A DNA stretch of 64,000 nt, taken from the NCBI RefSeq assembly GCF_017313225.1, contig NZ_JAFLNE010000002.1:372001-436000 (forward strand), in the 5' to 3' direction. The DNA comes from Allomuricauda sp. CAU 1633 (GTDB lineage: Bacteria > Bacteroidota > Bacteroidia > Flavobacteriales > Flavobacteriaceae). The notes below the pieces were generated by a model. It was not told the DNA's origin and did no database searches. It saw only the letters and a list, made by a program, of their open reading frames with translations. Below are positions 38,777-44,016 of the stretch, piece after piece; position 1 is the first letter of the stretch, and each line of letters opens with the position of its first letter. The position numbers and the translations under genes are program-made.

Positions 38777-39640
38777 ATGTCAAAGATCAAACTCATAGAA
38801 TGTCCACGGGATGCCATGCAAGGCATAAAGACCTTTATTCCCTCAGCGGAAAAGGCCAGATATATTCAGTCCCTTTTGGGTTGTGGGTTCGATACTATTG
38901 ACTTTGGCAGTTTTGTCTCCCCCAAAGCCATTCCCCAAATGCAGGATACTGCAGAAGTTTTAGCCCAATTGGACCTTTCCAAGACCAAGAGCAAACTTTT
39001 GGCCATAGTGGCCAATGTCAGAGGAGCAGAGGATGCTTGCCAACACGAGACAATTAATTATTTGGGGTTTCCTTTTTCCATTTCTGAAAACTTTCAAATG
39101 CGGAATACGCACAAGACCATTGCGCAATCCGTGGAAACTTTGGAAGGCATACTGGAGTTGGCTAACAAGCACAATAAGGAGGTGGTCACCTATATCTCTA
39201 TGGGATTTGGAAATCCGTATGGAGATCCTTGGGATGTGGACATTGTAGGGGAGTGGACCGAAAAGTTGGCGGACATGGGAACCCAAATTTTATCGCTTTC
39301 CGATACCATTGGAAGTTCCACACCAGAGGTCATAGATTATTTGTTTTCCAATCTCATTCCGAAGTACCCCAACATAGAATTTGGAGCCCATTTGCATACT
39401 ACACCCACCAAATGGCACGAAAAAGTAGATGCCGCTTACAAGGCAGGATGTCGACGGTTTGATGGGGCAGTACAAGGGTTTGGAGGATGCCCCATGGCCA
39501 AGGATGAACTTACCGGAAACATGCCCACAGAAAAAATGCTGTCCTACTTTACGGCAACAAAAGCCGATACTGGTGTAAACTGGATGGTATTTGAAGCTGC
39601 CTACAACAAGGCTACTGAACTTTTTTCAGCATATCACTAA
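38777..39640 (+). CDS. Hydroxymethylglutaryl-CoA lyase
   Basis: Cleaves HMG-CoA to acetoacetate and acetyl-CoA in leucine degradation. The 287-residue TIM barrel has KLIECPRDAMQG (Arg-Asp, metal and carbonyl binding), YISMGFGNPYGDP, LSLSDTIGSS, GAHLHTTP (metal His pair) and the glycine-rich catalytic loop QGFGGCPMAKD with the essential cysteine. The first motif differs slightly from the usual EVGPRDGLQ. Preceded by a 76-base spacer after pyrD. Confidence 0.9.
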   Translation: MSKIKLIECPRDAMQGIKTFIPSAEKARYIQSLLGCGFDTIDFGSFVSPKAIPQMQDTAEVLAQLDLSKTKSKLLAIVANVRGAEDACQHETINYLGFPFSISENFQMRNTHKTIAQSVETLEGILELANKHNKEVVTYISMGFGNPYGDPWDVDIVGEWTEKLADMGTQILSLSDTIGSSTPEVIDYLFSNLIPKYPNIEFGAHLHTTPTKWHEKVDAAYKAGCRRFDGAVQGFGGCPMAKDELTGNMPTEKMLSYFTATKADTGVNWMVFEAAYNKATELFSAYH

Positions 39641-39678
39641 GTTTTTATAAAAAGACGGGATATAAATGTTAAATATTA

Positions 39679-39709
39679 AAATTTATTTAAACCAAGTCTA
39701 AATAAATTT
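39679..39709. promoter_or_regulatory. Palindromic operator A upstream of the porin gene
   Basis: Fourteen-base arms AAATTTATTTAAAC and GTCTAAATAAATTT flank CAA; only one of the 14 pairs is a mismatch. The right arm runs into a candidate -33 TTTG at 39707-39710, so a bound protein would block RNA polymerase. The same core recurs at 42428-42450. By form it resembles DtxR- or Fur-type metalloregulator sites; that identity is inferred. Confidence 0.7.
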
Positions 39710-39738
39710 GTTTGGTTTGAGGGGTAAAAATATATTTG
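39707..39738 (+). promoter_or_regulatory. Promoter of the porin gene
   Basis: -33 TTTG (39707-39710) and -7 TATATTTG (39731-39738), spacing 20 bases, match the Bacteroidota pattern TTTG-N(17-23)-TAnnTTTG. The start codon is at 39761. The -33 overlaps operator A. Confidence 0.65.
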
Positions 39739-39760
39739 CCGCACAATTACTCAAACAATT

Positions 39761-40939
39761 ATGAAACAGCTCACTATTCTATTGGCACTTTTGTGTGCTA
39801 CTTTTGCTTTTGCACAAACCAAAACAGATTCCATCCAACTTGATCCACAGAAACAAATCAACGCTGCACAGCGATTGCTTTCTGGCAATTACGCATCCGC
39901 GGTAACCGTTGGGGCTTATGGCGAAATGCTATATAATCAGCCCGAGGCCCAAAATGGGGAATTGGACGTACAGCGCTTGGTACTTCTTTTTGGATATCGA
40001 TTTGATGACCGCACCCAGTTTGTAACGGAAGTTGAATTTGAACACGTAGAGGAAGTCTTTATAGAACAAGCCTTTGTGAACTATAATGCTGCTCCCAACT
40101 TAAATATTAGAGGGGGGTTGATGTTGGTGCCCATGGGTATCATCAATGAATTCCATGAACCCACCACTTTTAATGGAACCGAACGCCCGGCTATGGACAA
40201 TGCCATTGTACCCACTACATGGCGTGAGCTTGGCGTCGGGATAACCGGTAGGTTTAATTCAATTTCATTGGGATACCAAGCCTATATTTTCAACGGATTC
40301 AAATCTACGGAAGCTGATGGCGAAGGAGGGGTTGCTGGTAAGTTGAGCGGCTCCAGTGGACTTCGTGGTGGTAGACAAAAAGGAATTCAATCCACCATTG
40401 ACAGCCCCAACCTTTCCACAAAATTGGATTATTATGGTATCCCGGGCCTTCGATTGGGCTTTTCAACCTACTTTGGTCGTACCCAAGCCGAAGATGATGT
40501 GGAGCAGTTTGATGGCGCGGATATTGGCATTGCCATGTTCGGTTTGGATGCGAGATATGCCTACCAAAAATTTACAGCCCGTGGACAGTTTATCCATGCC
40601 TCACTTTCAGATACGGACGATTACAACACTTTAACCGGAAGTAATTTGGGAAGTGCCTTGCAAGGATGGTATTTGGAAGGAGCTTATAATGTACTTCCCG
40701 TGGGGAACCGCCAAAAATTGTTTGCTTTTTGCAGGTATGAAACCTATGATACCCATGCCAATACTGATGGTACCTTAACAGCAAACGAAGCTTATGATAG
40801 AACCGATGTTACCACTGGATTGACCTACCACATTGCGCCAGGGGTTGTGGTCAAGGGCGACTATCAGTTTAGAAGCAATGCAGCAGACGATGCTGATGTG
40901 TCAGACCGCCTTAATTTTGGTATAGGAGTTTGGTTCTAA
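39761..40939 (+). CDS. Outer-membrane porin (phosphate-selective porin-like)
   Basis: A 392-residue beta-barrel with signal peptide 1-19 (LLALLCATFAFAQ). The text is that of Bacteroidota porins of the OprP/OprO type: VTVGAYGEMLYNQ, DVQRLVLLFGYRFDDRTQFV, EVEFEHVEEVFIEQAFVNY, NIRGGLMLVPMGIINE, FHEPTTFNGTERP, and a final strand LNFGIGVWF with a C-terminal aromatic residue. A glycine-rich loop (about 185-215, GEGGVAGKLSGSSGLRGG) is probably extracellular or constricting. It precedes an FMN-binding gene and carries operator A, so its cargo may be a metal complex or small redox shuttle rather than phosphate; this is inference. Confidence 0.85.
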   Translation: MKQLTILLALLCATFAFAQTKTDSIQLDPQKQINAAQRLLSGNYASAVTVGAYGEMLYNQPEAQNGELDVQRLVLLFGYRFDDRTQFVTEVEFEHVEEVFIEQAFVNYNAAPNLNIRGGLMLVPMGIINEFHEPTTFNGTERPAMDNAIVPTTWRELGVGITGRFNSISLGYQAYIFNGFKSTEADGEGGVAGKLSGSSGLRGGRQKGIQSTIDSPNLSTKLDYYGIPGLRLGFSTYFGRTQAEDDVEQFDGADIGIAMFGLDARYAYQKFTARGQFIHASLSDTDDYNTLTGSNLGSALQGWYLEGAYNVLPVGNRQKLFAFCRYETYDTHANTDGTLTANEAYDRTDVTTGLTYHIAPGVVVKGDYQFRSNAADDADVSDRLNFGIGVWF

Positions 40940-40956
40940 GACACTCTGAATGGTTT

Positions 40957-40991
40957 CAATAGGGATAAATCACAAAGCTTTATCCCTATTG
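40957..40991 (+). other. Strong hairpin between porin and FMN-binding genes
   Basis: CAATAGGGATAAA and TTTATCCCTATTG pair perfectly over 13 bases with a nine-base loop. No T-run follows, so it is not a textbook terminator. It could stabilise the porin mRNA or reduce read-through. Directly after it stands a half operator GTCTAAAT (40993-41000). Confidence 0.65.
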
Positions 40992-41015
40992 AGTCTAAAT
41001 TAATATATTTGGTGT

Positions 41016-41546
41016 ATGAAACTGGGAAAATCAATATCTCTGGTACTTGGCTTTTTTGTGCTGCTCGCATTTTCACTTCCCAAGGAGGTGAACAAAAGGG
41101 TCTTGAAAGAGGTTGAAAAGACCTTTGAAGTATCGGATTTTACCTTAGAACCCATTACAGTTTCAGAAGAATTGAATGCCGAGCTCCCGGCTAAGATTTC
41201 TGGGGAAAATTTATTCCGCATCCAGGCTGGTCAATCCGTTTTGGGATATGCGTTTGCGGACCAGGCACCCAGCAAGACGGCCGTATTTGATTACTTGGTG
41301 CTTTTTGATGAGAATGTAGAGGTCATACATACCAAAGTTTTGGTCTACCGTGAAGAGTATGGCGGTGAGATTGGCAGTAAGCGCTGGTTAAAGCAATTTT
41401 TAGGAAAAACCGGCGGAGATCGTGTTGACAGCGACACCAATATCGACGTCATTTCCGGAGCCACCATCTCTGTGAATTCCATGACCAAGGCTATGGATAA
41501 TCTTTTTCAGACTATCGGGGTACTTCAGCAAAACGGAAAACTGTAA
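41016..41546 (+). CDS. Exported FMN-binding protein, covalently flavinylated
   Basis: A 176-residue protein with an N-terminal signal or anchor (KSISLVLGFFVLLAFSLP). The C-terminal FMN_bind domain holds the flavin transferase motif D144-V-I-S-G-A-T150 (pattern D-x-x-[ST]-G-A-[TS]), where ApbE attaches FMN to the threonine. KVLVYREEYGGEIGSKRWLK is the conserved strand-helix before it. In other bacteria such domains carry electrons across the periplasm (Rnf/Nqr-like and extracellular reduction systems). No ApbE gene is in the window. It overlaps by one base the next gene, a membrane protein, so the two should be a functional pair. Confidence 0.88.
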   Translation: MKLGKSISLVLGFFVLLAFSLPKEVNKRVLKEVEKTFEVSDFTLEPITVSEELNAELPAKISGENLFRIQAGQSVLGYAFADQAPSKTAVFDYLVLFDENVEVIHTKVLVYREEYGGEIGSKRWLKQFLGKTGGDRVDSDTNIDVISGATISVNSMTKAMDNLFQTIGVLQQNGKL

Positions 41547-42040
41547 TGGAGTACAATGGACTGCTAACCCGTTTTCCTAGCGAAATCCGACTTTTTATCG
41601 CAACGTTTGTAATTATTCTTTCAGTAGGATTTTTTACTGGACTGCTGTTCATTAAAGAAACCGAATCCACAACCCCGGCGGGAATAGAAGAAAATTATTT
41701 GGGAAATGAAGAAGATGAGGACGCGGAAGTGATGAAATTCAAAAAGGGTGACCGGGAAATGCTCACTATTGTGCACACCCACATCCTTTCCATGTCTATG
41801 ATCTTCTTTTTGTTGGGTGGATTGGTCTGGATAACCCGTTGCTCCAAAAAATGGAAACTTTTTTTGACGATTGAACCTTTTCTATCCGTCATTTTGACCT
41901 TTGGAGGGATTTATTTGATGTGGAAGGGCATTTCATGGTTCAAGTACATTGTCATCTTTTCCGGGATTTTGATGACGCTTACCTTTACCGGTTCAGCTTC
42001 TTTGGTGTTGTGGCAATGTGTAAAGCCTAGCAGAAAATAG
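41546..42040 (+). CDS. Four-helix membrane protein with paired histidines
   Basis: A 164-residue inner membrane protein; I do not recognise the family. Helices at about 15-36, 77-97, 107-126 and 131-153. Between helix 1 and 2 is an acidic extracytoplasmic loop (EENYLGNEEDEDAEVM). Helix 2 begins with HTHILSMSMI: His77 and His79 near the membrane surface are plausible heme or metal ligands. The start overlaps the FMN-binding gene's stop by one base. Inference: a quinol- or heme-linked electron donor to the flavoprotein. Confidence 0.75.
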   Translation: MEYNGLLTRFPSEIRLFIATFVIILSVGFFTGLLFIKETESTTPAGIEENYLGNEEDEDAEVMKFKKGDREMLTIVHTHILSMSMIFFLLGGLVWITRCSKKWKLFLTIEPFLSVILTFGGIYLMWKGISWFKYIVIFSGILMTLTFTGSASLVLWQCVKPSRK

Positions 42041-42047
42041 GCACAGC

Positions 42048-42416
42048 TTAATTTTCAATGAATCGGTAATCGATATCCTGGTATTCCAAAAATTTAATGT
42101 GTGGTTTTTTGAAGGATAATAGGTGCAGTATTTCGTGAACCTCTTCCTTGTTCACCAAGATGATGAAATGCTTCTTTCCTACCGAAATGGGGATTTTCCG
42201 TTGTTGTGTCCAATGTTTCAGTTGATTTTCCCAATAGGGGATATCAATTTCATCCACATATTCTTTAAAAGCTTCCAATTCCCATTCATACAATTCAAAA
42301 CAAAGATTGTTGAAGATCAGTTGAAAGAGTTTGGTTTTATCGCAAAAGGTCAATAAGCCGTTTTTGGATTGACTCAAAATATATAGAGAATTGCACATTA
42401 AATCTTGATTTTGCAT
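42048..42416 (-). CDS. DUF6686 family protein
   Basis: A 122-residue cytoplasmic protein. The ILSQSKNGLLTFCDKTKLFQ start, then LIFNNLCFELYEWELEAFKE, fits DUF6686 of Bacteroidota as I recall it. Two cysteines (C28-type FCDK and NLCFE) might bind metal. It converges with the four-helix membrane gene seven bases away and is preceded by operator B, the same palindrome as before the porin. So it appears to belong to the same regulon despite lying on the other strand. Function unknown. Confidence 0.72.
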   Translation of the reverse strand: MQNQDLMCNSLYILSQSKNGLLTFCDKTKLFQLIFNNLCFELYEWELEAFKEYVDEIDIPYWENQLKHWTQQRKIPISVGKKHFIILVNKEEVHEILHLLSFKKPHIKFLEYQDIDYRFIEN

Positions 42417-42427
42417 AAAGATATAAA

Positions 42428-42450
42428 TTATTTAAAATAAGTCTAAATAA
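42428..42450. promoter_or_regulatory. Palindromic operator B upstream of DUF6686
   Basis: Arms TTATTTAAAA and GTCTAAATAA around TAA; 8 of 10 pairs match. Compared with operator A, 21 of 23 core bases are identical. It begins 12 bases upstream of the DUF6686 start codon on the minus strand and 94 bases upstream of guaB, so DUF6686 is the more likely target. Confidence 0.65.
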
Positions 42451-42512
42451 AAATAAAATGATTGTGTTTTAATCAGAATAGGGGAAGGAATAGAAATCAA
42501 TTAAAATAGTGG

Positions 42513-42520
42513 TATATTTG
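42513..42520 (+). promoter_or_regulatory. -7 element of guaB
   Basis: TATATTTG fits TAnnTTTG, 23 bases before the guaB start. No clear -33 TTTG is found at normal spacing. Confidence 0.5.
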
Positions 42521-42543
42521 CACGCAATTAATCCGTAATTGCA

Positions 42544-44016
42544 ATGGAAGCCCACCTAAATAAAATTGTTGGCGAAGGACTTACTTACGACGATGTTCTT
42601 CTTGTGCCAGCATATTCCGAAGTACTCCCGAGAGAAGTCAATATTCAGTCCAAATTTACAAGGAACATTACCATTAATGTACCCATTGTTTCTGCGGCTA
42701 TGGATACCGTTACCGAATCCCGAATGGCCATTGCCATGGCTCGTGAAGGAGGTATTGGGGTGTTGCACAAAAATATGACTGTTGAACAGCAGGCTATGAA
42801 AGTCCGAAAGGTAAAACGGGCCGAAAGTGGTATGATCATGGATCCCGTGACCCTTCCGCTGGAATCTACCGTACGTGATGCCAAAGCAAATATGAAAGAG
42901 CATAGCATTGGCGGAATTCCGATTGTGGATACCAACAAAAAATTATTGGGAATAGTTACCAACCGTGACCTTCGCTTCGAAAAAAATGATAATAGACCTA
43001 TAGCTGAGGTAATGACTTCAGAAAATTTGGTCACTGTTGGGGAAGGTACCTCCTTGCAGCAAGCTGAAGTGATTCTTCAGGAAAACAAGATTGAAAAGCT
43101 TCCCGTGGTCAATGAAAAGGATGAACTGATTGGGCTTATCACTTTTAGGGATATCACCAAATTGACCCAAAAACCCATTGCCAACAAAGACCAATATGGG
43201 CGTTTACGGGTAGCCGCAGCCGTTGGAGTAACCGCAGATGCTGTGGAAAGGGCTGGTGCATTGGTTGCTGCTGGAGTGGATGCCATTATTATTGATACAG
43301 CCCACGGACACACCAAAGGTGTGGTTGGTATTTTAAAAGAAGTGAAAAAGAATTACCCAGAGTTGGAAGTGGTGGTGGGTAATATTGCCACAGCCGAAGC
43401 TGCCAAATATTTGGTAGAGGCCGGCGCAGATGCCGTCAAGGTCGGAATTGGGCCTGGCTCCATTTGTACCACCCGTGTAGTAGCTGGGGTTGGTTTTCCG
43501 CAGTTTTCTGCTGTATTAGAAGTAGCGGCTGCCATAAAAGGAACGGGGGTTCCTGTGATTGCCGATGGAGGAATCCGTTATACCGGGGATATTCCCAAAG
43601 CGATTGCCGCCGGAGCCGATACGGTGATGTTGGGTTCCTTGTTGGCCGGGACTAAAGAATCGCCGGGAGAGACCATCATTTATGAAGGCCGAAAATTCAA
43701 ATCCTACCGTGGAATGGGCTCTGTTGAGGCTATGAAACAAGGGAGTAAGGACCGTTATTTCCAAGATGTGGAGGATGACATCAAAAAATTGGTTCCCGAA
43801 GGAATCGTGGGTCGTGTACCGTATAAAGGTGATCTTTACGAAAGTATGCATCAATTTATCGGTGGACTCCGTGCTGGAATGGGCTATTGTGGTGCAAAGG
43901 ATATTGCCACTTTAAAAGAAAATGGTCGGTTTGTAAAGATTACTTCCAGCGGTATCCATGAAAGTCATCCCCATGATGTCACCATCACTAAGGAAAGTCC
44001 AAATTATAGTAGGTAA
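42544..44016 (+). CDS. guaB: Inosine-5'-monophosphate dehydrogenase
   Basis: Oxidises IMP to XMP with NAD, the committed step of guanine nucleotide synthesis. The 490-residue protein has the TIM barrel split by two CBS domains (about 95-210: [40 protein letters not shown]). Catalytic loop: [17 protein letters not shown] with the nucleophilic Cys. Other marks: [39 protein letters not shown], and the flap [12 protein letters not shown]. Length and motifs are canonical. Confidence 0.97.

Follow-up and report, generated by a model that had tools for sequence, protein, structure and literature searches.

The window analysed here, 64,000 nt from the 4.26-Mb genome of Allomuricauda sp. CAU 1633 (contig NZ_JAFLNE010000002.1, positions 372,001 to 436,000; coordinates below are those of the window), contains three consecutive plus-strand genes that encode a porin, a protein with an FMN_bind domain and a small four-helix membrane protein, herein TM4. 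It is fairly probable that these constitute an electron-transfer module of the envelope that is repressed by Fur and serves iron assimilation. A convergent gene encoding a DUF6686 protein follows, and near-identical palindromes precede the porin and DUF6686. An earlier note on this DNA had described these genes and palindromes, and all were found in the places it gave. It had also proposed a single, possibly iron-responsive, regulator, and this is supported by the resemblance of the palindrome to the Fur box of flavobacteria and by its conservation upstream of the porin in relatives.

Read on the minus strand, the palindromes are ATTTAGACTTGGTTTAAAT before the porin (39685–39703) and ATTTAGACTTATTTTAAAT before DUF6686 (42430–42448). 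The pattern ATTTARNCTNNNTYTAAAT, with no mismatch permitted, has only two matches in the entire genome, which are these two sites. The Fur box predicted for Riemerella anatipestifer, ATTTAGAATTATTCTAAAT, is located no more than 100 bp from the start codon, and four promoters carrying a putative box, that of hmuR included, bound purified Fur in gel shifts (PMC5609570). The same paper presents two boxes, GATAATGATAATCATTATC in its abstract and ATTTAGAATTATTCTAAAT in its results, and the latter was used for scoring; against it, the palindromes before the porin and DUF6686 match at 15 and 17 of 19 positions, respectively. For related loci, the score was the best match in 150 bp upstream, out of 19, with thresholds of at least 14 and at least 16. 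These counts cover the named and diverse loci, with L063 and 40 genus-level loci (L086–L125, 35 of which repeat a TM4 of the named set) left out. Upstream of the porin, 70 of 71 loci reach at least 14/19 (the miss, L073, scores 13/19) and 56 of 71 reach at least 16/19, levels attained by 14.9 % and 0.3 %, respectively, of dinucleotide shuffles. Control genes reach at least 14/19 in 4 of 140 cases (HMGL 3/75, DHODH 1/65). By its sequence, then, the palindrome is a Fur box conserved in relatives, from which we infer control by Fur, and two FUR-family genes in the genome score above cut-off.

With regard to other genes, matches of at least 14/19 occur upstream of DUF6607 in 12 of 12 loci, of the hfpR-like TonB gene in 11 of 11, and of DUF6686 in 25 of 33, with all eight misses being over-long open reading frames (ORFs) whose start codons are uncertain. 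The corresponding figures are 48 of 82 for FMN_bind and 11 of 98 for TM4, whilst that for guaB (37 of 81) is raised because the stretch shares the DUF6686 box. Where FMN_bind has its own box, this usually starts 34 bp before the start codon, and 20 of 24 Maribacter/Arenibacter loci reach at least 14/19 there; in the window, a decayed third box (12/19) is found upstream of FMN_bind (40982–41000, plus strand). Within loci of the DUF6607-FMN_bind type the box scores at least 14/19 in 20 of 20 cases, compared with none of 53 unlabelled genes of more than 150 aa at the same loci. Looser box-like sites in the Allomuricauda genome are located before hemA, beside an AraC-type regulator gene (L080, 3464), before a TonB-DUF4198-PepSY_TM iron locus (L085, 4799) and, as a pair, between TonB/HmuY and DUF6607-FMN_bind at locus L078. 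These are leads only, as a reversed control pattern scores nearly as many.

The FMN_bind protein (176 aa; 41016–41546, plus strand) is exported or membrane-anchored, scores 30.7 bits against a Pfam cut-off of 22, and by profile has RnfG of Rnf complexes as its nearest solved relative (E-value 0.014, aligned over the GAT site). The motif D144-V-I-S-G-A-T150 reads as the earlier note had described, as do H77 and H79 of TM4; the aspartate, however, is not constant (D in 16 of 23 aligned rows), and it is G148-A149-T150 that never varies (74 of 74 non-redundant sequences). Within the same set Y111-R112-E113, G116, Q127 and S152 are likewise invariant. Because the GAT-S signature is without exception, and because the genome encodes ApbE, which deep relatives have close to the triad, the protein is a probable flavinylation substrate, as had been suggested, with covalent FMN predicted at T150 (codon 41463–41465, plus strand). 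The genome's own ApbE adjoins nqrABCDEF (L079), away from this locus. In characterised flavinylated systems, a membrane apparatus delivers electrons to the extracytosolic flavin (PMC8238504).

The gene for TM4 (164 residues; 41546–42040, plus strand) shares one base of its ATG with the FMN_bind stop codon (TAATG). The model (pLDDT, predicted local distance difference test, 86) comprises four long helices, and across 44 sequences at 70 % non-redundancy the residues G53, H77, H79, F87, E110, P111 and F119 are invariant (H77 codon 41774–41776, H79 codon 41780–41782, both plus strand), with a further conserved, GIEENYLGNE-like loop. By the charge rule, both ends would be cytoplasmic and the loop before H77 periplasmic. 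The nearest named relatives are from Flagellimonas and Allomuricauda. Pfam assigns no family to the window protein, nor do Pfam and NCBIfam yield a convincing one for 22 diverse members (best E-value 0.0016, one member); the PepSY, MsrQ, NapH, DsbD and DUF4405 families are not among the matches of these 22 at E-values up to 0.1. Weak Pfam matches to DUF998 (3 of 22 members, best E-value 0.0025), DUF5336 and DctQ (one member each), and weak NCBIfam matches to FraC (E-value 0.0016), NuoN and a Plasmodium domain (one member each), were taken as chance. In a structural comparison with VIA-align a designed protein had the best Z, 8.2, and two heme-copper oxidase chains, at 7.4 and 6.6, were interspersed with helical bundles unrelated to them; such values are common for helical bundles, and no family was therefore drawn from them. 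The HxH of helix X in heme-copper oxidases bears only a resemblance to that of TM4. A sequence search of the PDB returned nothing for TM4 profile A1 and, for profile A4, solely ELAV-like protein 1 (E-value 0.054), again taken as chance, and a plasmid collection contained no match to TM4.

The porin (392 aa; 39761–40939, plus strand) scores 28.2 bits for Pfam Porin_4, where the cut-off is 27. The best Foldseek matches of its AlphaFold model (pLDDT 73.9) are OmpM1, OmpU and OmpF/OmpC-type porins, with E-values down to 1.2 × 10−13, and it is accordingly predicted to be a beta barrel of the general-porin kind; a sequence profile found no match for it in the PDB.

Conservation of the arrangement was assessed in relatives, the genes of which were called by a greedy ORF script and given names from BLAST or hidden Markov model (HMM) similarity, with some checked by Pfam. 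Amongst 148 relatives, TM4 is present in 64 and FMN_bind in 67, with both in 62, TM4 only in two, FMN_bind only in five and neither in 79. The two TM4-only genomes are G041, where the gene is broken by stops, and G045, where it is cut at a contig end; G041 is the sole real case of TM4 without FMN_bind. Two FMN_bind-only genomes, G007 and G038, are 83 % and 79 % complete. The other three (G110, G121 and G136; loci L292–L294) are small-genome relatives that keep porin-FMN_bind, two of them in front of TonB and HmuY. Across 61 loci, the order porin-FMN_bind-TM4 is found in 31 and DUF6607-FMN_bind-TM4 in eight (with a small ORF between in a few). A further 22 have TM4 without FMN_bind beside it, and FMN_bind is encoded elsewhere in 21 of those 22 genomes, G041 being the exception. 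Twenty of these unlinked loci were fetched (G065 was left out), and in all 20 FMN_bind follows DUF6607 and is divergent from a TonB receptor and HmuY. A second locus of this kind exists in the Allomuricauda genome itself (L078; G000:C1:1075000-1086000), where HmuY and a TonB receptor are divergent from DUF6607-FMN_bind and TM4 is lacking; the single TM4, encoded in the window, may serve both loci. ORFs and Pfam reveal neither a TonB receptor nor HmuY adjoining the window triad.

The named loci, 79 of the best 80 from 414 found (L160 gave no TM4 ORF), display FMN_bind before TM4 in 60 instances, TM4 straight after HMGL in 12, a VKGC/HTTM-TonB cassette before TM4 in five (three with Haem_bd, PF14376) and a divergent TonB receptor in two. 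In L193, L199, L210 and L214, TonB-HmuY is followed by up to two genes and then porin-FMN_bind-TM4. A TonB receptor, a vitamin K-dependent carboxylase and an imelysin are on the Riemerella list of Fur-regulated genes (PMC5609570), matched here by name and not by sequence. Loss of the gene order or of the palindrome in relatives, which the earlier note had held would tell against its proposal, was not seen.

Beyond these relatives, even samples of 395 class genomes and 296 phylum genomes, each including that of Allomuricauda sp. CAU 1633, contain 31 other genomes with TM4, and 27 of the loci were fetched with wider flanks. FMN_bind lies directly before TM4 in 26 of the 27 (the pair was not resolved by the script in L309), and it is also beside TM4 in the remaining four genomes (G280, G460, G537 and G548). 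TM4 is the only near-constant partner of FMN_bind, with the outer-membrane part varying between porin and HmuY/TonB. By BLAST labels, ApbE adjoins the triad in nine of the 27 loci (L297, L299, L301, L305–L308, L310 and L317; Pfam-confirmed in L301 and L297) and is one gene away in L316, which brings those near the triad to 10 of 27. Likewise by BLAST, FeoB is near the triad in L297, L309 and L318, Fur in L297 and L317, and a TonB receptor in L295, L296, L300, L315 and L316. The order in L297 is Fur-FeoA-FeoB-porin-FMN_bind-TM4-ApbE, with Fur, FeoA and FeoB confirmed by Pfam, as is the ferritin beside TM4 in L296. These links to FeoAB, Fur, TonB/HmuY and ferritin, seen in some loci, support the envelope-redox and iron function that had been envisaged.

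The mechanism we envisage is that, when iron is scarce, Fur would leave its boxes and permit transcription of the porin, FMN_bind and TM4. ApbE would attach FMN to T150 on the periplasmic side, and TM4, situated in the inner membrane with H77 and H79 near the periplasmic face, would feed electrons to that flavin, probably from menaquinol and possibly via heme held by the HxH of a dimer. Two TM4 chains that share a heme site may have their precedent in FezC, for which modelling gives a homodimer with heme sites (PMC11334425). The flavin would then reduce ferric or heme iron admitted to the periplasm by the porin (or, in relatives, by a TonB receptor with HmuY), and the ferrous iron would enter through FeoB. 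We infer that TM4 conducts electrons, and likewise infer the cofactor and donor that it would use, the membrane topology and the substrate.

Several observations weigh against this reading. The counts above span related genomes and are not independent, and the pair is patchy: it is missing from 79 of the 148 relatives, and just 10 of the 395 class genomes and 27 of the 296 phylum genomes contain TM4. In G110, G121 and G136 FMN_bind is present and TM4 is not detected, also by profile, and thus it is not required in every case. Neither a cofactor site nor a homologue is recognisable for TM4; it has only two invariant histidines, on one helix, compared with four in DUF4405-type cytochromes, and its model has no confident Foldseek match (best E-value 0.47, to channelrhodopsins, with MGST lower). 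In 18 of the 27 wide loci, FeoB, Fur, TonB, HmuY, DUF6607 and ferritin are all unlabelled by BLAST, and some of the closeness to TonB receptors is chance, these being common in the phylum. When up to two mismatches are allowed, ATTTARNCTNNNTYTAAAT has 57+63 (120) matches in the Allomuricauda genome, and a reversed control pattern has 55+46 (101); such loose matches are mostly chance, and are not clearly above control.

Of the alternatives, the most probable, though unlikely, is that the module acts mainly on heme, reducing it or releasing its iron at the membrane, and that the porin version is derived. The DUF6607-FMN_bind loci with TonB/HmuY, at 20 of 20 fetched, would suit such a role, as would the Haem_bd gene beside TM4 in some named loci; the porin, however, is the usual partner in the 27 wide loci, where HmuY is labelled only once. 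It is decidedly unlikely that TM4 is instead a permease for ferrous iron (or another metal), or a metal-handling protein, supplied with Fe(II) by an FMN_bind protein that some other donor, such as Nqr, reduces. An invariant HxH near the predicted periplasmic face, the invariant membrane residues E110-P111, the conserved GIEENYLGNE-like loop and the iron linkage of part of the loci could all be accommodated by transport. Against this, FeoAB precedes the triad in L297, such that a ferrous permease is already there, and we know of no permeases of this size. A ferric or heme-iron reductase fits better than a permease, since the outer-membrane part changes and the pair stays, and since, at one locus, the ferrous step falls to FeoAB.

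Quite improbable is a role for TM4 as an anchor or assembly factor for FMN_bind, aiding membrane insertion or ApbE docking and carrying no electrons. The near-obligate pairing of the two genes and the lack of any recognised cofactor motif would be consistent with this, but the invariant histidines are left unexplained, FMN_bind persists without TM4 in G110, G121 and G136, and no such factor is known to anchor the FMN_bind proteins of Rnf and Nqr. Very improbable, finally, is a reductase of the envelope that respires or detoxifies some porin-admitted solute, with iron control reflecting cofactor economy only. In its favour, the porin is of general type, 18 of 27 wide loci lack a labelled iron gene and flavinylation serves varied redox functions (PMC8238504); against it, the Fur box is conserved and linkage recurs to TonB, HmuY and VKGC/TonB cassettes, and in single loci to FeoAB or Fur.

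More tentatively, and with rather less than even confidence, the Fur-repressed electron-transfer module may be extended beyond this genome. TM4 could found a new class of small four-helix inner-membrane electron conduits to flavinylated proteins, with a dimeric HxH heme, and porin-FMN_bind-TM4(-ApbE) could be a Bacteroidota-wide iron-assimilation operon in which the outer-membrane part is exchanged and the reductase pair kept.

DUF6686 (42048–42416, minus strand; 139.5 bits, cut-off 23.9) is convergent to TM4, and its inclusion in a single four-gene system, as the earlier note had it, was not upheld: among the loci examined it adjoins TM4 only in Allomuricauda/Flagellimonas-type genomes, and some DUF6686 genes elsewhere have a Fur box of their own. 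Of 247 class genomes, counting that of Allomuricauda sp. CAU 1633, 26 encode a member of the family. Its boxes were counted from 200 bp upstream to 60 bp inside 22 genes, again including that of the window, with L273, L275, L283 and L288 dropped as their central ORF is not DUF6686; six of the 22 (L263, L269, L271, L278, L279 and L285) reach at least 16/19, and L269 reaches 19/19, a count that stands without a shuffle control. L269, L271, L278, L279 and L285 belong to other families of the class, and the DUF6686 family may be a wider Fur target. In L295, DUF6686 is beside HmuY and TonB genes with FMN_bind-TM4, and a relative (own HMM, E-value 4 × 10−10) is beside a TonB gene in L296. A 112-residue protein near hfp in L064 was also compared, with hhalign giving a probability of 1, an E-value of 0.054 and 11 % identity, and hmmsearch an E-value of 1.7 × 10−4 against three sequences only; homology is not claimed on either count. 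DUF6686 is likely a Fur target of the same regulon, probably outside the redox module rather than a conserved part of it, and probably cytosolic in its role.

The surrounding genes are an HMGL-like lyase (38777–39640), to the left of the porin, and guaB (42544–44016), past DUF6686; no other Rnf/Nqr subunits are present at the locus. Between the porin and FMN_bind lies a perfect 14-nt inverted repeat with a 9-nt loop (40956–40992, plus strand), the right arm of which overlaps the decayed Fur box; this hairpin is possibly a partial terminator or an mRNA-stabilising element. The interval from the HMGL-like gene to guaB (39641–42543) is an exchange site across related species (loci L086–L125 and L156–L235), its contents being porin-FMN_bind-TM4, TM4 alone, imelysin/VKGC/TonB(-Haem_bd)-TM4, or a TonB receptor divergent from TM4.

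The general kind of system is already known, namely flavinylated electron transfer tied to iron. Flavinylation-based extracytosolic electron transfer (PMC8238504, PMC11334425) likewise couples a predicted ApbE-modified FMN_bind domain to a partner in the inner membrane and is also linked to iron assimilation; TM4, however, is none of the partners named in the available text of those surveys (Nqr/Rnf, NapH-, MsrQ-, PepSY-, DsbD-, Nqr/Rnf-like and DUF4405/FezC), and a porin is added here. To RnfG/NqrC the window protein has only weak similarity, and the nqrABCDEF and ApbE genes of this genome lie elsewhere. The Hfp/Hmu heme uptake system of Flavobacterium psychrophilum (HfpR-DoxX-HfpY; PMC9331221) is matched by those FMN_bind relatives, whether or not TM4 adjoins them, that have Fur boxes and are divergent from TonB receptor and HmuY genes, in some cases together with DoxX; whilst at the window locus a porin is present and both the TonB receptor and HmuY are absent, the TonB/HmuY version is found at L078. 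The PepSY_TM/TonB/DUF4198 iron system, a copy of which (L085) also has a box-like site, shares the logic of an envelope iron reductase, but uses a different membrane protein family and has DUF4198 in place of FMN_bind. Within the open-licence PMC literature searched, no paper was found on the porin-FMN_bind-TM4-DUF6686 gene set, on TM4 as a partner, on the porin link or on the exchange of outer-membrane parts, and the names DUF6607 and DUF6686 appear in none.

To our knowledge, the reduction of ferric and heme iron in the envelope of Bacteroidota is poorly understood. The FMN_bind-TM4 pair is a defined candidate for such a reductase, has a control site that can be put to the test, and brings in an unannotated membrane family that surveys using annotated neighbours or apbE-adjacent partners would easily miss, TM4 being 164 residues long, without a family and, in this genome, distant from apbE. 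For TM4, DUF6607 and DUF6686, the first testable roles are thus offered.

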